This document shows, piece by piece, positions 521 through 16,797 of a DNA stretch of 25,993 nt (positions are counted from its first letter, which is position 1; every line of letters begins with the position of its first letter). This DNA comes from Stramenopiles sp. TOSAG23-3. Its lineage: Eukaryota > Sar. Made by a program: the position numbers and the translations under genes. The stretch spans positions 1-25,993 of the forward strand of contig LT642280.1 of NCBI GenBank assembly GCA_900128585.1, read 5' to 3'. The notes under the pieces were generated by a model that worked only from the letters and a program-made list of their open reading frames with translations, made no database searches and was not told the origin of the DNA.

Positions 521-3160
521 ATGAAGCCCGAGGCCCAGCTTGGTCGGGGTCGGGCGTGCATAGACTTTAGAACAGTCATGGATTTGCCCTCTAAAAGCAC
601 TGGGTTGAGATATCTCCTTCTTTCGCCAATAATATTGTGTACGTGGTTCATCTTTCGGTGTTCTTTACTGTTCGAGCCGTCTCGACAGGAGCTCTCTCTG
701 TTTTGTGGGATTTTGGTGGGCACTCTGTTCCTAAAAACCTTGGGCCACGTTTCCGTCCGCAAGAGCACTACGTCCAGCAATGGGAAATCAGTTCCGTACC
801 CACCGAGCCGCAAACGCGAGAAAACATTTAAGCAAAAAATTGGGGCCATAGTTCCATGCCACAAATCTGAGGCTGAGATTAAGAAAGGACTTCAAAGTCT
901 TTTGATAAAAGGGATTTTGCCGGAACATATTTACGTGATGGATAATGCCGACTCACCGGTACCGCCAGACGATACTAAAAGGGTCGTGCGCTGCATACAC
1001 CCGGGAATTAAGTACATATTTATACCCAAGGGCCTGAAGACTTTTGCGCTGTGGAAGGCCACAAACGATTTTCCTAGCACCGTAAAGTACATTCTTCATT
1101 TGGACGACGACACTGTGCTTGCAGACAGCATCCGCTTCAACGAGGCAACATTCGATGACCCGACCGTAAGCTCGATTTCTTACAATATTCGAGTGAGGGA
1201 CCTGAGCGGGCGTTCTTCCGCGGACAGTGCGGCAAGCTGGTTGCATCGGTGCATTGATTTTGAGTTCTCCCTGAAAAACTCATGGCGGGTGTTTCAGACT
1301 AAGTATGAGGGGACTGGATGGTGGGCGCATGGAATATGTGGACTGTGGCGCCGCGAAGCATTCTACGAAACCTTGCGCAGCCACCCCTTTCGCCCGTTCG
1401 GGGAAGACACTTGGTTGGGTGCAATAAACTCTTTTCGAGGATACCGCATGGTGCACGAGTGCCATGGAAACGTATTTACGCACGCGCCGTCTACGCTATG
1501 TTCGTTCAGTAGCCGTATACAGGGGTACGGAGCGACATCGCTATGGAAACAAAGAGCCAAGCGGTGGTATGTCACAAATTTTTCCCTGTTGCATATACGC
1601 CTGCTGCAGTTTTTTACAAGGTTGCCAAAGCACAGTCCCGTTTCTCGTCTCCAGGAGATTGTATACCGCTCGGAGTTGCTCCTTCAACCCCTGTGGCATT
1701 TTATGCATTTGCTGTGGGTTCCGTCGATAACATTCAGGTGCTTCATGTATTTTTCGCTGCCGGAACAAATTATTGCAGCCTTGGCCTTGTACGCGCTTCT
1801 TCTGTTTCACTTTTATGTGGTCAGTGCGTTGGGATTCCCGAAAGAGCAACGGAAGGGGGACATCTTGTTTTCCTACCCACTGTTTTACCTGTTTTTGTCG
1901 TTGACCGAAGTGTATGCGTCTTGGTATGCATTGCTTGTGTACATTCCCATGTTTCCATCGAAAATCGGTCGATACACTTCAAGGACAGAGCTTTTGAAAA
2001 CGTTGCAGAAAACTGCAGTAGAGGCTTCCACTAAGTCGGTAGACGAAACCAAACAGACTCTGCGCAAGTTTTTAAAAATGAAACCTGGGGATGCCGACAA
2101 CAACCAGTTGGTGTACCACTACATTGCCGGGCGCCTGGTGAATGCGATCGAGAAATATCCTGGCGTTTTGGGCGCGCCCCTTTCCAAAATTGGCTTTGCA
2201 CGCACAAGCGGTGAAGTTCGGGAACAGTGCAACTATCGATGCGCAGACTTTTTTATTTTAGGAGCTTCAAAATGTGGGACTACGTCCCTATCAAGGCATT
2301 TATTAGCCCATCGAAAAATATCGTTCTTGTCCAGACTAGGCGGAGAGTCCTGTTCGCGGACGTTTCTGGAACAAGACGTGTCTCGGCTGACTTGTGACAA
2401 CATGGATGCTTTAGAGTGCCACATTTACGACAAGCGGCACGCCTCTGTATCATTCATGCACGCTTTGAACCGATTGTACACCCCACAAGATGACGGGGGC
2501 GGAAGCAAGCTTGGGCATTACACCCCACATTACCTGTACCACCCGTCAGTTCCGTTCAATATCCGTGATACATACACTGCTGAGTCTTTGAAAGCTTTGA
2601 AATTCATCGTGATGCTGCGAGAGCCCGTTTCTCGGGCGGTGTCGAGCTGGAAGTACAAAGTGCAGTGTGGGAAAGAGCACAGATCTCTTGAAAAGGCGAT
2701 AAAGGAGGGCATGTTTCAAGTGACATCATCGGAACGAATGTTGTCCCTGAAAGATTTTCAAATCGGATCTGAAACCTTTAGGAATCATTGGGAGTCTGCT
2801 ATTTTGGATGCCCCGGGTAGAACATGCTCACCGTTTAAGGACCATGTCGGTAAAGGCGTTTATAGCCTGCAATTAGAGCTGTGGTTTTCTATATTTTCAA
2901 ACCGAGAGCACTACAAATTTATCCCCCTTGAAAGTTTGAGGGATCGGCCAAAAAAGACCGTTAGAGACGTCCTTGAGTTTGTTGGATTAGAAAGCACGGA
3001 AGAGTGCAACCAATCTACGCAAATTCGGTACAACGGATCGAAGCCTTCTGGGGTCAAATTAAGTGCCGAAGACCTTAGGGCTATTGAACGGCTGAAAGAG
3101 TTTTACCGCCCGTATAATGAGAAATTGTATGCAATGATTGGTCGGAAATTGGGTTGGTAG
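521..3160 (+). CDS. GT2 glycosyltransferase-sulfotransferase fusion, membrane protein
   Basis: This 879-residue protein joins two enzymes. Two hydrophobic segments (about 30-50 and 57-75) precede a family 2 glycosyltransferase domain (about 105-350), with acidic metal/sugar-nucleotide motif D195-D196-D197 in LHLDDDT, a GED motif at 294-296 (likely catalytic base) and KQRAKRW at 343-349, which resembles the QxxRW signature of processive GT2 enzymes but with Arg at the usual Gln position. About three hydrophobic segments follow (384-478). The C-terminal domain (about 570-879) is a PAPS-dependent sulfotransferase: the 5'-phosphosulfate loop is GASKCGTTS from G581 and the 3'-phosphate motif is LREPVSRAVSS with R700 and S708. 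It probably makes and sulfates a polysaccharide in the Golgi or plasma membrane; substrate unknown. ATG 521 is the first in-frame start; ATG 578 is an alternative. The assignment of both domains is firm; the combined reaction is inference. Confidence 0.88.
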   Translation: MKPEAQLGRGRACIDFRTVMDLPSKSTGLRYLLLSPIILCTWFIFRCSLLFEPSRQELSLFCGILVGTLFLKTLGHVSVRKSTTSSNGKSVPYPPSRKREKTFKQKIGAIVPCHKSEAEIKKGLQSLLIKGILPEHIYVMDNADSPVPPDDTKRVVRCIHPGIKYIFIPKGLKTFALWKATNDFPSTVKYILHLDDDTVLADSIRFNEATFDDPTVSSISYNIRVRDLSGRSSADSAASWLHRCIDFEFSLKNSWRVFQTKYEGTGWWAHGICGLWRREAFYETLRSHPFRPFGEDTWLGAINSFRGYRMVHECHGNVFTHAPSTLCSFSSRIQGYGATSLWKQRAKRWYVTNFSLLHIRLLQFFTRLPKHSPVSRLQEIVYRSELLLQPLWHFMHLLWVPSITFRCFMYFSLPEQIIAALALYALLLFHFYVVSALGFPKEQRKGDILFSYPLFYLFLSLTEVYASWYALLVYIPMFPSKIGRYTSRTELLKTLQKTAVEASTKSVDETKQTLRKFLKMKPGDADNNQLVYHYIAGRLVNAIEKYPGVLGAPLSKIGFARTSGEVREQCNYRCADFFILGASKCGTTSLSRHLLAHRKISFLSRLGGESCSRTFLEQDVSRLTCDNMDALECHIYDKRHASVSFMHALNRLYTPQDDGGGSKLGHYTPHYLYHPSVPFNIRDTYTAESLKALKFIVMLREPVSRAVSSWKYKVQCGKEHRSLEKAIKEGMFQVTSSERMLSLKDFQIGSETFRNHWESAILDAPGRTCSPFKDHVGKGVYSLQLELWFSIFSNREHYKFIPLESLRDRPKKTVRDVLEFVGLESTEECNQSTQIRYNGSKPSGVKLSAEDLRAIERLKEFYRPYNEKLYAMIGRKLGW

Positions 3161-9125: not shown

Positions 9126-11522
9126 ATGAGTGAGGGTCCCGTTGCCCAGGAGAAAAGCGTTCCTCCCGAGCAGGCGCCATCTTCGCCCCAGGGTGATTCT
9201 TCCTCTGCTGACAAATTCCCAAAGAAGCGAAAGTCCATTGTGGCGAGGCTGTTTGATCACGGTCCCAACTTTGCCCGTGCTCGGTCCGGATCGGATGACA
9301 AAACTAGCGGCTGGAAGAAAGCTGTCGGGTACGCGCCAGCAGTAATTCTGACCAGGGAGCAACAAAAGGAATTTCGAGAACAAGAAATGAAAAAGTTTGA
9401 GCTTCAGTTCCAAGAAGATACCAAGGTGACGACCAAACCTTGGAAATTGAAAGTGCTGGCATGGTTGGACTCGACCCCCATCGAGGTAATGATGATGATG
9501 CTGACGGTGTTCGCGCTGTACGGTGCGGACATAGCTAACGCCCACGGCACCAAAGAAGACATTGTGCCAATGAGTATCACGAACCTAGTTGTCATGATTG
9601 TGTTTTTGGTCGAGCTTGGGATCAATTCCGTGTGCAAGCCGGGCTACTTTCTTATGGGAAACTTTTGGCTCGATTTCCTCGCCGCAGCATCGCTCATTGG
9701 GGACATCAACTTCATCGCCGACGAAATCATCCCGTCTGGCTTTGCCGCAGCCCGCGCCGGGCGAGCGGCTAGGGCGGGGACCAAGGCCGGCCGTTTGGTA
9801 AAGCTGGTGCGATTGACGCGGCTGGTGCGTTTGGTTCGCATCGCACGCCTTCGAAAGTACATGAAACGCAAACAAAGGGTTTCGGTAGTGGACATGCGCG
9901 GAACCGAGGAGGAGAGGGAAATCCTTCGAAAAGCACGGGAACGGGACAAAAGAGCCAATGCCAACGAGAATACGGATGAAAGCGCTGACGGGATTGCGAA
10001 TGGTATAGCGGGCCTAACCACGTTCAAAGTTATTGTTCTGATTCTTCTTATGCTTTTGGCCATTCCCATGCTCCAGATAAACCCGCATGAAGTCGACAGC
10101 CGAGGCCACGCGTTGGTATCGCTGCAGTCCATTGCCGAATCATCAGACGACTCTACGCTGATCGCTGCGGGGGTAAGCTCGTTCAAAAACAACCCCGATA
10201 ACAAAGACTTGGTCCTTTGGATGCGTGTGAACGGATCGGACTTCGTTCCGAAAAACAATGACAAGATTGACAGCATGAGATCGGCGGACCTTCAGCCATA
10301 CGGGTATGGCGGCGCGTCATGCGGCACCAACTGCTATTTGTATGATGAAAAATTCCCTGCGCTGTTGGTGTACGATATCGAAGTGTTCAACCGCGCCGAC
10401 GCGACCAACTCTTGCTGGACGACAACCTTTATCATTGTTCTCATCATAGGGGCTATGCAGCTCTTTCGAATGGATGCGAACAAGCTGGCGGACCGTATGA
10501 CTGATCCGTTGGTAGTCCTATCAGAAGATATGGAACTTGTTTCAAACATGTCTTTGGGAACCACCATATCCCACAAGCCTTCAAGCGTGAAAGAAATCCG
10601 AAACATCCAACAAACGTTCTTGAGAATGAAGTATGGTCTTGGATCGTTTGCAAAGTATGTTCCCTACGAAGTTGTCAGGGGAATGATGTCGAGGGGAGAG
10701 GAAGCAGTTTTGGGCGTAGCGCCCAGAGAAATAACAATTTTTTTTAGCGATATAGCCGGGTTTACAACCATTTGTGAAAAGATGAAACCGAACGAACTGT
10801 TGATTCTGTTATCGGATTATTTTGCAGCCATGTCCACGCTGATTAGCCAAAGCGACGGGACGCTGTTAGAATTTATCGGGGATGCTATACTGGCCGTCTG
10901 GAACGCCCCCATGGCAGTTTCCGACCACGCATACCAATGCGTAGAGCAAAGCATAAAAATGCACTCTTACCTCGACAAAATGCAACCAGAATGGGCTGGA
11001 AAGGGCTATCCTCCTATAAAAATAAGGTGTGGGATTCACACTTCAACTGTGTTTGTAGGAAACATCGGGTCGCCCGACCGAATGAAGTATGGGGTTCTTG
11101 GGGATGGGGTTAACTTAGCCTCGCGTCTGGAAGAACTGAACAAGCGGTACTCGACCCGAATGATGATCTCGATCAATACTCGAACAAAGCAAAAGGTTAC
11201 AGACCACTTTTTAATTAGACCACTGGATGTAGTCGCAGTCAAGGGGAAATCAAAAGGGACCGCAATATTTGAAGTTATGGGGCGTTTGAAACACGCTGAT
11301 GATTTTGAAAAAAGTATACAGCAAGCCCATGAGCAAGGTTTTCAGTTTTACCAGAAGCAAGAATGGGACAAAGCAATTGAAAAGTTTGATGAAGTCATAA
11401 AAATTCGTGGTGGTGCGGATGTAGCTGCGCAGTTGATTAAAGACCGCTGCATAAGCATGAAATCAAATCCTCCTCCGGCAGGGTGGGATGGGTGTGAAGT
11501 CCTGAATCAAAAACACTTTTGA
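9126..11522 (+). CDS. Class III nucleotide cyclase with voltage-sensor-like membrane domain
   Basis: A 798-residue protein predicted to make cyclic nucleotide from ATP or GTP at a membrane. Hydrophobic segments at about 115-205 resemble S1-S3 of a voltage sensor, with an acidic S2 (FLVELGINS) and S3 (FWLDFLAA). An S4-like helix follows with basic residues at 210, 213, 216, 220, 223, 226, 229, 232, 235, 238, 241 and 243. A cytosolic loop, TM5 (about 298-316), an extracytoplasmic region (about 317-430) and TM6 (431-448) come next. No pore sequence is visible. The catalytic domain (about 510-700) keeps metal-binding D542 and D586, 44 residues apart as in the family, and transition-state N663 and R667. 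The substrate-choice positions are E582 and G656, not the Lys/Asp pair of classical adenylate cyclases. The end resembles a TPR (GFQFYQKQEWDKAIEKF) and a PPAGWDG tail common in bacterial-type cyclases. ATG 9126 is first in frame. Confidence 0.88.
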   Translation: MSEGPVAQEKSVPPEQAPSSPQGDSSSADKFPKKRKSIVARLFDHGPNFARARSGSDDKTSGWKKAVGYAPAVILTREQQKEFREQEMKKFELQFQEDTKVTTKPWKLKVLAWLDSTPIEVMMMMLTVFALYGADIANAHGTKEDIVPMSITNLVVMIVFLVELGINSVCKPGYFLMGNFWLDFLAAASLIGDINFIADEIIPSGFAAARAGRAARAGTKAGRLVKLVRLTRLVRLVRIARLRKYMKRKQRVSVVDMRGTEEEREILRKARERDKRANANENTDESADGIANGIAGLTTFKVIVLILLMLLAIPMLQINPHEVDSRGHALVSLQSIAESSDDSTLIAAGVSSFKNNPDNKDLVLWMRVNGSDFVPKNNDKIDSMRSADLQPYGYGGASCGTNCYLYDEKFPALLVYDIEVFNRADATNSCWTTTFIIVLIIGAMQLFRMDANKLADRMTDPLVVLSEDMELVSNMSLGTTISHKPSSVKEIRNIQQTFLRMKYGLGSFAKYVPYEVVRGMMSRGEEAVLGVAPREITIFFSDIAGFTTICEKMKPNELLILLSDYFAAMSTLISQSDGTLLEFIGDAILAVWNAPMAVSDHAYQCVEQSIKMHSYLDKMQPEWAGKGYPPIKIRCGIHTSTVFVGNIGSPDRMKYGVLGDGVNLASRLEELNKRYSTRMMISINTRTKQKVTDHFLIRPLDVVAVKGKSKGTAIFEVMGRLKHADDFEKSIQQAHEQGFQFYQKQEWDKAIEKFDEVIKIRGGADVAAQLIKDRCISMKSNPPPAGWDGCEVLNQKHF

Positions 11523-11972: not shown

Positions 11973-14864
11973 TTACCTATCGGTAGTGAAAATTCTACCA
12001 CGAAAGAGTTTTCCAGTTAAAATCTTTTTCTTCTTCCGCTGCGGCGGCTGTGGAATTAAAGATCGTGGTTTCGTAATGCGCCGGGACGGTGGTGGAATAG
12101 GAGGAATTTCTGTTGCACCCACTGCCATATGACGGTTCGGTGCTGGAGCGTTTGTGTTCGGTTGGTATTCTTGTGCTAAACTCTTGCGCCACATAAATTC
12201 CTCAGCATCGGAGCATGAAGGTTCATTTTCGGGAAGTGTTTCACTGTTCTCAGCTTTGCTGGTACATTTTCCTTTTATCTGAGGGGGTTCCACGGGTTGA
12301 GACCGTATGTACATGTCTTGGGCACGTTTTAAGGCGTTGAGGGTTGTTGTTTGATAGGGTATGTGCCGGTGGTCTTTCATGCATTCCATCGGTTTCGGCG
12401 GCTTCCTAAGGAACACATCAGCTCGCTGTACGTGGGCTGTGGCTTTCCCATGGGAGGTGTGCGGTGGTTCTTGACAGCTTGGGGATAAGAAGTTTCGAAA
12501 ATTTTGTTTGCGCTGAAGTAAAACTTTTATACTGTTCAATGTTTCCACCGGGAAACTTATGCCTGCCTGCTCGCGTGTTATTGAATACGCGATGACGGGG
12601 CCGATCGTGCGAATGGTGTTTGGCTCGACGGATAGTTTCACGAGCCTTTGAAAGCTTGAATATTGATACTTGCGGAAAAGCGCTGAGTATCCGACAAGTG
12701 CCGTATCGCCCAATTTGCTCACAACTGCCCCGGTAGTGCCGTCAAGGACGGCCAGCTCGCCCCTGGCAATAAAAAATAGTTTTGATGAGCACTCTCCTCT
12801 TTTTACCAAATCAACATTTTTTTCTACGTGCTGCAAATGCATGTACGGTAAGAAACGATAGTGTTTGTTCAGTGACCAAAGTCTTAGCTCAGGGATGCGT
12901 TTTATCAACCTATATTTGTCTCTGTTTGTATTGCTGTAGCGGCCAGAGGTGTGTGTGGCCGTTCCTTGAAGCTCTGCCTTCTGCCAATAATGTTTTGAGA
13001 TTTTTATCAAAATGCATTTGGTTGTAGCAATAGCAGTAGTCGGTCGCATGCCTATTTCTAAAACGGCCAAGTCGCCAAATGTGTCTCCGCTGGAAAGCGT
13101 TGCTATATTGTGGAGGGTTTTCGTGCCTTCGTACACCAGGTTGACTTGTCCAGCAAGGACAACAAAGCACGCCGCGCCGTGCTCGCTTTGACTGTACACG
13201 CGCTCCTGTGCCGGTGTATGGGCGTATGACAGCCCATCTGTCAACGTTACCATTTGGCTCTTGCTCCAATCCCCGCACCTTTCCTTCACCATATTGCACG
13301 TATAGAGCAGTGAAATCAAAAAGTTTTTCTCGAGCTTCGACCGGTCGTTGTTAATCAACGATTTCATGCAAAACCGGTGTAGTAATGAGAGATTTTTTGT
13401 GTCGCTTGCAGCCTTGACTTCGTTTGCGTCCAATTGTAAACTTGAAAGCAGTGCTTCCGAGTTTTTCGAATTTAAATTCTCCAAAAGTCGCTCGTAAAGG
13501 ACGCACCGCGTTGGTAATTTGTCTGAACGCACCATGTTTCTGGAAGCCCTAATTATCCGTGCCCGGAATGACGACCCATTACGTTGCTCTAAGCTGAGGG
13601 ATAGTTTTTCTACCAGCGCACTCGTTGCTTCTGACGTTTTCTTCGTGGTCAATGCATCACTTTGCACCATGTCGGTAACAGCCTGGTCTCTTGTAAAGTC
13701 TTTGAATAACAGGCCATCTTTGTCTTGCAAAATGTTCGTATCCGCGAGTCCATGCCGAATTTCATGCTGGTACGAAAGCATTTCCTTCACTTCGAAGAGG
13801 TGCTCATGGCATTCTTCTTCTTTTATGACAATGCACAAAATGTCGGTTGCGGCCGTCGCCGTTTCCGTTCTATTTTTTCCCTGGCCACTAATAAGGAACG
13901 CTTCTCCAAAGTAGTCGTGGGCCTCTCGAACACGAATTTCATGCGTCCACTTTCTGTGTATATTTGCTGGAACGGAAAGGGATATTTTCCCATCTATTAA
14001 CATGTACAAGTGCTCGGCAACAGAGCCAAATTCGTAAACGATGGAGCCTTTTGGGTAGACCTTTGTTTTCGATACCAAACATAAATTTTTCAACGCCCGT
14101 AACGATAAACTGCGAAATGCAACGATGTTCTGGATCGCCCTCATTCGAAATTGCACTTGTTTCTCTGTGTGTAGTTGCTCGTTCTCGCCAAGGACAGAGA
14201 GGAACCGCTGCTTAGATAGCTCCATACAAACACAATCTTCCCTCGCCACAATCGTGGCCGTGCGAATGCAATGTTCCGATAGCAATGCCTCTTCGCCGAA
14301 CCACTCGTGCGCATGCTTGTACCCTACAATGTGCTCCTCTTCTGTGGGGTTATTTGTGTCTTTCTTGTGCAGGACAACAACAGACCCTGCTTTTATGATG
14401 TAGAACTTTGCGCCAGGTTCGCCTTGCTTTACAATCGTCTCGCCCTTCTGAAACTCACTCTCAGCCATATGCTTTGCAACTTGTTCGAGCTTCGTCTTTC
14501 CGATCTGTATTGCCAGGCCTTTTATCTTTGATAACATTTCGGCTCTATTTCGTAGTTCCAGAGTGGCCCCTAGGTCTCTCTCGTTTTTCAACAGCATCTT
14601 GCCATGCAACTGTTTCATACGCATTTCCCGCAGAAAAGGATCCACCAATCTCCCTTGGCGTTCATATTTTCTAAGGTAGGAGGTTGATTTCCTTCCTTTG
14701 CATCTATGGTTATTCTTCATGGCAAATATGATTGGTGGAAAGCATAGGAATCTCCTTTGCCATGACTTAATTTGAGAGGTAAAATTGTACATTTGTGATG
14801 TGACTTTGCTTTGTGGTTTGGCGGTATATAAAAATGGACCATTGTTGAACATGAATGTGATCAT
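11973..14864 (-). CDS. Protein with four tandem cyclic-nucleotide-binding domains
   Basis: Up to 963 residues without a kinase or channel domain. CNB1 (about 115-235) has a near-canonical phosphate-binding cassette FGEEALLSEHCIRTATI (F189, G190, E191, R201). CNB2 (about 250-355) has FGEAFLISGQGKNRTETA, with an irregular cassette. CNB3 (about 530-630) reads FGDLAVLEIGMRPTTA, with Asp598 for the usual Glu and R607 kept. CNB4 (about 665-765) keeps the beta-barrel pattern (GECSSKLFFIARGELAV) but has lost the cassette. The C-terminus is proline-rich and basic. CNB1 and perhaps CNB3 should bind cAMP or cGMP; the rest may be structural. Such kinase-free CNB proteins occur in flagella, which is only suggestive. 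The first ATG is 14864, but the first 48 residues look unlike the rest, so ATG 14792 or 14720 may be the true start. It converges on the cyclase gene. Confidence 0.85.
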   Translation of the reverse strand: MITFMFNNGPFLYTAKPQSKVTSQMYNFTSQIKSWQRRFLCFPPIIFAMKNNHRCKGRKSTSYLRKYERQGRLVDPFLREMRMKQLHGKMLLKNERDLGATLELRNRAEMLSKIKGLAIQIGKTKLEQVAKHMAESEFQKGETIVKQGEPGAKFYIIKAGSVVVLHKKDTNNPTEEEHIVGYKHAHEWFGEEALLSEHCIRTATIVAREDCVCMELSKQRFLSVLGENEQLHTEKQVQFRMRAIQNIVAFRSLSLRALKNLCLVSKTKVYPKGSIVYEFGSVAEHLYMLIDGKISLSVPANIHRKWTHEIRVREAHDYFGEAFLISGQGKNRTETATAATDILCIVIKEEECHEHLFEVKEMLSYQHEIRHGLADTNILQDKDGLLFKDFTRDQAVTDMVQSDALTTKKTSEATSALVEKLSLSLEQRNGSSFRARIIRASRNMVRSDKLPTRCVLYERLLENLNSKNSEALLSSLQLDANEVKAASDTKNLSLLHRFCMKSLINNDRSKLEKNFLISLLYTCNMVKERCGDWSKSQMVTLTDGLSYAHTPAQERVYSQSEHGAACFVVLAGQVNLVYEGTKTLHNIATLSSGDTFGDLAVLEIGMRPTTAIATTKCILIKISKHYWQKAELQGTATHTSGRYSNTNRDKYRLIKRIPELRLWSLNKHYRFLPYMHLQHVEKNVDLVKRGECSSKLFFIARGELAVLDGTTGAVVSKLGDTALVGYSALFRKYQYSSFQRLVKLSVEPNTIRTIGPVIAYSITREQAGISFPVETLNSIKVLLQRKQNFRNFLSPSCQEPPHTSHGKATAHVQRADVFLRKPPKPMECMKDHRHIPYQTTTLNALKRAQDMYIRSQPVEPPQIKGKCTSKAENSETLPENEPSCSDAEEFMWRKSLAQEYQPNTNAPAPNRHMAVGATEIPPIPPPSRRITKPRSLIPQPPQRKKKKILTGKLFRGRIFTTDR

Positions 14865-15216: not shown

Positions 15217-16797
15217 TCAAACCTTCATGTATATCACTACGTCTTGACCGCGCGACAGATGCTCAAAGATGACGCGGGTTGCGTAGCTTGCTTTTTGGAC
15301 GAAAAACTTTGAGTTTACATAGACGGTACCACAGGCCATTGGCGTGTCCCAGTCCCTTGTGGGCCACTCCCCTTGCTTCAAATCCGAGTAACTCTCCAAC
15401 ACGACGACATCGTGGCCGTCGTACACGATAGAATTAGTACACTTTCTCCAGGGACGGCTTTGGCACAACAACGCAGGGTCGTTGCCGTCATCGCCGCCGG
15501 CTTGCTCCAATATGCTTTCGCTTACATTTTTGAATTCTACGAGGGGCAACTTGGCGGCCCCGGAGGCTATGCTTACTATACGTTTGTAGACCACCTCGGG
15601 CGATTCGGTTGCCACTTTGTTCGACACTATCAAAAAATTCTTTTCAAACGCGCACGTCTGCAGTACTAGCTCAAAATAAATCCCATTCAAGATATCCAAA
15701 TCTACCAAAGGGACAACGCTCCTGTCTGTGGCTGTGGTTTTTTGAGCGTATTCTACTAGATTGCGATGTGCAACAGACGGCTCCGAAGCGACGAACACAT
15801 TCAACACTTTGCATGTAGGCGACCCGCCTTTCGGCCGCGCTCTAATCGCCAGGCCAGACTTCGCCACCATGTTGTTGAAAAACGTGCGGTAGCAGTTCAT
15901 CTGGTAATCTGTTAAGCGGCCCTTTCTGAAATCGAGAAGGGCCTTCCCAAAAAGCCCCACGGGGCTGGCATCGGAAAATGCCATTCGCGTTGCCGGCGTT
16001 CCGCCCCCTAACTTCACCGTGTTGAAGCAGTGATCCAGGGTGCCCATCCCAGTCGACAAACAATGAATGTGCCACGCTAAGGAAATCTCTGCCGGGTTCT
16101 CCGCCTTTGCCGAGAGCAACGTATGCTCTTTTTCGTGGCCGAACACATGCAATCGAGCGGTCTCGTTGGACGAACGCCCTTGAAAAAAAGAAAACGTCCC
16201 CGCAGCTGCAGATCCCGGTAGACCCATTATCGTCACTACCAATGGCTCGTGCTTGTCACTGCGGTCGTTTGCGCTTGCTTGCGGCGCCGACAACCCCGCC
16301 CGCGGTGCGTCGGAGCTTGCTGCAGAGGGTGCGCTCCCTGAGCACGTTGCCTCCGACTCAGTATTGGCACTTTCAGCATCAAGCGCGTCGCTTCGTCCCG
16401 CGCTGCTTTGTTCCACTACTTCGTTCACCAACTGCTGCAATTCATCGTCCTCCCCGATAATCTCTTCAATGTGCTTTGGGTCGATTCTTGGCTTCTTTTT
16501 CTTCCTCCCAGCATTCGCATCTGGGACAGTCCTCACTTCGTCCAGGCTTCGTTTCCCGGCCGCGTTCAGAACCTGCGCGGTGACATGTTCCAACACAGCA
16601 GCAAGAAATACAGGAACGTTTGGTGCAACTTTTGGCTTGGCTCCCAATAGATCCGCCTGTGATGATTCCAGCGCTTGAAGCACGTGAGAGCTTGAAAACA
16701 GCGGCTCTTCGGAGAATATCGAACTTATACTAGATGCCGCCCCAGACGACGCTCCCGAGGTGCTTTTCTTCTCGGTACCTTTACCGGCCTCCGACAT
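15217..16797 (-). CDS. H2A-like histone fold fused to deoxynucleoside-kinase-like domain
   Basis: The frame is open to 16827, but only GTG stands there; the first ATG is 16797, giving 526 residues. After a Ser/Ala-rich start, residues 36-130 align with histone H2A: VPVFLAAVLEHVTAQVLNAAG (61-81) matches helix 2 of H2A ([21 protein letters not shown]), then a lysine-rich insertion (85-101), then RIDPKHIEEII and EDDELQQLV (104-124) for helix 3 and the acidic-patch helix. A low-complexity linker (131-183) leads to residues 184-420, whose spacing follows deoxynucleoside kinases: P-loop-like GLPGSAAAGTF (192-202, no lysine), a helix like the family's YEKPERWSFTFQ segment (233-243), FSDAS where ERS is expected (274-278), then VPLVDLDIL-YFELVLQ (362-380). 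Catalytic Lys and Arg are missing, so the domain is probably a pseudoenzyme. The last 100 residues are unassigned. Likely nuclear. H2A call firm; kinase-like call moderate. Confidence 0.75.
   Translation of the reverse strand: MSEAGKGTEKKSTSGASSGAASSISSIFSEEPLFSSSHVLQALESSQADLLGAKPKVAPNVPVFLAAVLEHVTAQVLNAAGKRSLDEVRTVPDANAGRKKKKPRIDPKHIEEIIGEDDELQQLVNEVVEQSSAGRSDALDAESANTESEATCSGSAPSAASSDAPRAGLSAPQASANDRSDKHEPLVVTIMGLPGSAAAGTFSFFQGRSSNETARLHVFGHEKEHTLLSAKAENPAEISLAWHIHCLSTGMGTLDHCFNTVKLGGGTPATRMAFSDASPVGLFGKALLDFRKGRLTDYQMNCYRTFFNNMVAKSGLAIRARPKGGSPTCKVLNVFVASEPSVAHRNLVEYAQKTTATDRSVVPLVDLDILNGIYFELVLQTCAFEKNFLIVSNKVATESPEVVYKRIVSIASGAAKLPLVEFKNVSESILEQAGGDDGNDPALLCQSRPWRKCTNSIVYDGHDVVVLESYSDLKQGEWPTRDWDTPMACGTVYVNSKFFVQKASYATRVIFEHLSRGQDVVIYMKV

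Follow-up and report, generated by a model that had tools for sequence, protein, structure and literature searches.

We report that a window of 25,993 nucleotides from Stramenopiles sp. TOSAG23-3 (contig LT642280.1) contains on its reverse strand an open reading frame whose inferred product joins an H2A-type histone fold to a degenerate domain of the deoxynucleoside kinase (dNK) fold. Both parts are known, but no fusion of the two was found in the literature, in which our wider searches went by titles and the beginnings of abstracts. The product is probably a nuclear adaptor. More specifically, our best explanation, to which we assign a probability of roughly 45%, is that it is directed to the nucleus, that its histone fold pairs with an H2B-type partner, and that its inactive kinase domain serves as a scaffold.

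An open frame of this length, 526 codons, would arise at random at this base composition with a probability of about 2e-11. A protein search found the fusion gene in single copy in the genome, an incomplete eukaryotic assembly of 12.9 Mb in 660 contigs; the other matches, both weak and through the histone part only, were an ordinary H2A gene and an H2A.Z-like gene. Searches of wider protein collections, whose hit lists are lower bounds because they rely on shared words (P0005, although part of the query alignment, was missing from one later list), returned P0002 to P0006 and the fragment P0007. P0002 is a cluster of four sequences on four contigs and represents the same protein with one substitution (V63I). 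The full fusion is carried in a continuous frame by P0003 and P0005, which are 31% and 33% identical to the window protein and come from contigs of only 1,880 and 2,079 bases, lengths that would fit transcripts, although their nature is not stated. P0004 starts within the histone part, of which just loop 2 to the C-terminal helix matches P0003, its first residues being different; P0006 (349 residues) begins just upstream of the P-loop and, as deposited, is without the histone part; and P0007 covers a piece of the kinase part onward. At least three protein lineages have inherited as a unit the histone fold, the acidic linker, the dNK-fold domain, and a conserved C-terminal region.

The histone part was recognized by comparison with proteins of the PDB. 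Using phmmer, the window protein matched H2A at residues 56-128 (56-160 for H2AX) with a best E-value of 4.8e-6, and the best 60 of 205 matches were all H2A. A profile built from three sequences (window protein, P0003, and P0005) reached a whole-sequence E-value of 2.5e-9 (4.2e-7 for the best single stretch), with the best 60 of 210 matches again all H2A. By sequence, then, this part is assigned to the H2A type, in agreement with the original prediction. That prediction had followed H2A helix by helix, which is upheld from loop 1 onward, where the PDB alignments begin, whereas helix 1 draws on a MAFFT alignment and a model of low confidence (predicted local distance difference test score, pLDDT, of about 30-40). 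Identity to P0003 and likewise to P0005 is 10/19 in helix 1; in loop 1 with helix 2 it reaches 21/27, more than in any other of the seven regions compared. Pfam, at E-values up to 10, and NCBIfam reported neither a histone nor a dNK domain; PF00125 was accordingly not reported for the window protein, and a PF00125 search of the genome did not return this locus. Given the PDB matches and the silence of those libraries, the similarity to H2A is real but beyond the reach of their models.

We compared the histone part of the same three proteins with the genome's own H2A, using the residue roles known for H2A. Of the DNA-contact positions in the loops, R42 is lysine and R77 is kept in all three. 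The R29 and R32 positions are non-basic in all three, and R35 is glutamate in the window protein and arginine in the other two. The acidic patch of H2A consists of E56, E61, E64, D90, E91, and E92. Positions E56, D90, and E92 are kept in all three proteins, and E91 is aspartate in the window protein only. The acidic EDDEL segment originally described is present, but none of the three retains E61 or E64, and half of the patch is gone. Also absent from all three is the docking segment (GGVLPNI), and PF16211, which the genome's H2A and H2A.Z-like protein both match, was unreported for the window protein. Residues 33-130 have a net charge of -3 and an isoelectric point of 5.6 in the window protein, as compared with -2 and 6.3 in P0003, +7 and 10.0 in P0005, and +5 and 10.0 in the genome's H2A. 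One histone fold is seen by sequence; residues 131-183 show no second one and are modelled as coil at low confidence.

For the kinase part, fold searches with Foldseek and VIA-align ranked the human dCK family first, both with the window protein and with P0003. The models have mean pLDDT values of 45.2 and 44.8, with only about residues 183-350 at 64-81 in most blocks. No histone chain occurred among 50 VIA rows, a list that the kinase part fills and that barely tests the histone part. Comparison of the family profile with dNK by hhalign gave a score of 25.2 over 168 columns (E-value 0.011, probability only 3.7%), against 20.95 for the best of 100 column shuffles, 21.6 for the reversed profile, and only 17.8 for the window protein alone. 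Thus, as modelled, the proposed dNK order and spacing is confirmed by fold search and supported more weakly by the profile comparison. A search of the genome with PF01712 at E-values up to 1 found no match, this locus included. When the C-terminal part was searched against the PDB with a profile of two sequences, two matches came up at E-values up to 10, neither of them a dNK. The genome has two thymidine kinase (PF00265) genes, on contigs C541 and C469. With these two genes but no PF01712 match, the pseudo-dNK has no active paralogue in the assembly.

Residue roles in this part are those of dCK. A MAFFT alignment to dCK shows its catalytic glutamate, LID arginines, and ERS motif to be missing from all five proteins compared: Q97 (histidine in all), R104, E127, R128, D133, R188, R192, and R194 are lost in each, and a gap stands in place of the E53/W58 loop. 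The ERS arginine is absent from all five, as originally noted; the MAFFT and hhalign registers differ, yet no arginine falls there in any protein. None of the five conforms to GxxxxGK[ST], the second glycine being lost in each. The relatives read GLPGSQKA, GLPGSQKT, GLPGCRKT, and GLPGSMKE, and the serine/threonine position is threonine in two of the five (P0004 and P0005). The reported loss of the P-loop lysine holds for the window protein, which has alanine, but not for the family, since P0003, P0004, P0005, and P0006, the four relatives covering the site, all retain it. Degeneration of the P-loop is therefore stepwise, with the window protein the most degenerate of the five. An active kinase was rejected on the lost catalytic and substrate residues. 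Identity in the kinase part, 61/233 with P0003 and 65/233 with P0005, is far under that of loop 1 with helix 2.

Conservation is higher in the C-terminal region than in the kinase part; the region is retained in all of P0003 to P0007, is identical at 32/81 positions with P0003 and with P0005 and at 37/81 with P0006, and has the invariant elements ESY.DL..G.W, C..VY, and FEH.SRGQ..V.Y. A profile of the region had three PDB matches (best E-value 0.28), short and unrelated, and no known family was found. The protein shares with dCK, dGK, and TK2/dNK (PF01712) its predicted fold and element order, and differs from them in its lost catalytic and substrate residues, its lack of a Pfam match, and this extra region of about 80-100 residues.

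We propose that the H2A-type fold would use its helix 2 to pair with a histone fold of the H2B type, be it free H2B or another partner, and would make weak contact with DNA through the conserved loop-1 lysine and loop-2 arginine. The basic stretch in the insertion would direct the protein to the nucleus, and the pseudokinase and C-terminal region would form a protein-binding scaffold beside the dimer, by analogy with NDUFA10 in complex I. Neither deoxynucleoside phosphorylation nor the building of ordinary nucleosomes would be expected. An adaptor fits best because conservation concentrates on the helix that would pair with H2B, because features for nucleosome stacking and for docking to H3-H4 are lost, and because the enzyme is dead. 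The lysine-rich insertion in the loop 2 region was correctly recognized at the outset: it carries GRKKKKPR, and its GRKKKKP stretch is possibly a nuclear localization signal or a DNA contact. Several observations weigh against the adaptor. The sequence of the insertion is unconserved (0/21 identical with P0003, 6/21 with P0005); contact with DNA is doubtful given that two of the three folds, those of the window protein and P0003, are acidic and only that of P0005 is basic; the kinase part may exist alone, as P0006 would indicate unless its gene model is incomplete; and both models are of low overall confidence.

NDUFA10 itself is a structural subunit of mitochondrial complex I. It belongs to the dNK family and is reported as unlikely to be active (PMC7699753). 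It is mitochondrial and has no histone fold, and we saw no sequence match between it and the window protein; with a histone part fused, an NDUFA10-type role in complex I is unlikely for the window protein.

The histone fold could instead act in the cytoplasm in the manner of the H domain of Sos, binding within its own chain or to other proteins and regulating the pseudokinase, with no role on chromatin. We regard this as rather unlikely, though the acidic fold of the window protein and P0003 is in its favor, and the Sos folds are reported to lack the charge pattern that nucleic acids require and to serve autoinhibition and contacts between proteins (PMC13088155, PMC6328564). The Sos H domain is described there as a pseudodimer of histone folds devoid of DNA-binding charge (PMC13088155), and the H domain of cytosolic Sos and ABTB2 as H2A-related folds in multidomain proteins (PMC13088155, PMC6328564), N-terminal as here, so that macroH2A, initially put forward as the precedent, is not the sole one. 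However, Sos and ABTB2 are reported to have two folds per chain, which pair with each other, and other fused domains (PMC13088155), whereas the one fold seen here would need a separate partner or self-pairing. The basic fold of P0005 and the loop DNA-contact residues kept in all three proteins likewise argue against a Sos-like role.

Could the protein be a nucleosomal H2A variant, its pseudokinase projecting from the nucleosome as in macroH2A? The likeness extends to the arrangement, in which a linker and a large folded domain come after an H2A-type fold, and the relationship to core H2A is clear: loop 1, helix 2, loop 2, helix 3, and the C-terminal helix align, and the contacts of both loops are kept along with three acidic-patch positions. 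Nevertheless, such a variant is quite unlikely in view of the missing docking segment, the lost E61 and E64, the non-basic R29 and R32 positions, and the insertion where helix 2 ends, to which may be added, as departures from core H2A, the acidity of two of the three folds and the long C-terminal fusion. MacroH2A, by contrast, is reported to retain the acidic-patch residues (PMC3510494), and its large domain is a macro domain rather than a dNK fold; Pfam reported no macro match in the window protein. The placement on chromatin suggested earlier is not supported, the evidence on it being mixed.

Nor is the idea of nucleotide sensing supported. A dNK-like pocket might still bind nucleosides or nucleotides, though no longer catalytic, and so report the state of deoxynucleoside triphosphates, and retention of the P-loop lysine in the relatives, threonine in two proteins, and the invariance of D276, W242, and H243 across all five would be in keeping with this. 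But the lost second glycine, the missing lysine of the window protein, the deleted E53/W58 loop, and the loss of the LID arginines from all five make a sensor improbable. More improbable still is a combination of these views, an H2A variant bearing the pseudo-dNK on chromatin, in which a remnant pocket or recruited proteins would couple chromatin state to the supply of DNA precursors.

The original prediction also raised transfer from a large DNA virus; a recent one is very improbable. The best viral folds were giant-virus dNKs (Pithovirus LCPAC202, Foldseek E-value 1.2e-6), matching by fold only, and giant viruses are reported to carry histones as well (PMC11222145). Yet there was no relative in IMG/VR, scanned with only two short histone-part patterns, and none among 50,697 phage records. 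Among the protein-search ids P0001 to P0007 (seven in all, less the query), none was labelled viral, most being unlabelled. Moreover, ten proteins were scanned, nine of them window neighbours; domains of cellular type occur in seven of these nine, either above the cut-off of Pfam or in a long alignment, and none has a viral hallmark. A viral scan for dNK motifs gave 0 stretches, one with the Drosophila dNK sequence gave 8 pattern matches but no relative, and the four proteins compared with PHROGs matched 0 families. A viral origin is not supported by these limited searches, of which the IMG/VR scan was confined to the two histone-part patterns. Finally, that the fusion is an artefact, arising from a chimeric assembly or from reading two genes as one, is scarcely credible and was rejected for the fusion as such: the joined part is of low complexity, but the junction has no stop, P0002 repeats the architecture with one substitution, and P0003 and P0005 share it at 31-33% identity.

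If confirmed, the protein would add an independent example in which a large, once catalytic domain is attached to an H2A-type fold, would indicate that the dimerization helix of H2A is reusable as a docking piece, and would provide a second role, besides that of NDUFA10, for a pseudoenzyme of the dNK fold. It defines a family that the searched Pfam and NCBIfam models miss, with a conserved C-terminal region lacking a known fold. Were the chromatin interpretation true, a protist lineage would have made a macroH2A-like device from a different ligand-binding fold.

Table 1. Features of the fusion gene and its inferred product (positions refer to the window)
Feature	Residues	Position	Strand	Basis or remark
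Whole open frame	526 in all	15217..16797	(-)	ATG to TGA, no intron needed, no inner stop
N-terminal Ser/Ala/Gly-rich tail	1-32	16702..16797	(-)	Missing in P0003 and P0005 (alignment)
Putative histone helix 1 (LFSSSHVLQAL...)	33-52	16642..16701	(-)	Low-confidence model helix 36-52
Predicted histone loop 1 and helix 2, H2A-type (KVAPNVPVFLAAVLEHVTAQVLNAAGK)	56-82	16552..16632	(-)	PDB sequence and profile matches
Insertion before helix 3, at helix 2 end (GRKKKKP)		16489..16551	(-)	13-residue gap against H2A
Predicted histone helix 3 and C-terminal helix (RIDPKHIEEIIGEDDELQQLV)	104-130	16408..16488	(-)	PDB matches, alignment
Low-complexity linker	131-183	16249..16407	(-)	Net charge about -4 (residues 133-183)
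Predicted pseudo-dNK domain	184-417	15547..16248	(-)	Foldseek and VIA-align
Degenerate P-loop (GLPGSAAA)	192-199	16201..16224	(-)	Alignment
Place of ERS motif (SDAS), no arginine	275-278	15964..15975	(-)	D276 invariant in five
Conserved C-terminal region (ESYSDL..G.W, IFEHLSRGQ)	445-526	15220..15465	(-)	Alignment

A Pfam scan of the neighbouring frames found domains usual in eukaryotes (glycosyltransferase and sulfotransferase, G-patch, DnaJ, guanylate cyclase, and thioredoxin), four cyclic-nucleotide-binding stretches, and, both under the cut-off, Hemingway/CFAP97-like and sialidase-like BNR matches. In the 879-residue frame at 521-3160 (+), a sulfotransferase domain comes after a family-2 glycosyltransferase region, to our knowledge an unusual pairing in one frame. 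A membrane-type guanylate/adenylate cyclase gene at 9126-11522 (+) lies tail to tail with 11973-14864 (-), whose product has the four cyclic-nucleotide-binding stretches; the two possibly form one signalling pair.

Elsewhere in the incomplete assembly no light-harvesting family was found, for which reason the host is perhaps heterotrophic. Two divergent H3-like proteins are encoded at L001:1483-2004 (-) and L002:1486-1800 (-), of which one, possibly CENP-A-like, has an N-terminal tail that is long and unusual, and the other, of 104 residues, is almost tailless. A weak histone match on contig C181 proved to be an ordinary TAF6, and a 244-residue frame on contig C423 (L008:1129-1863 (+)) fuses an HMG box to an NF-Y/CBF-type histone fold.
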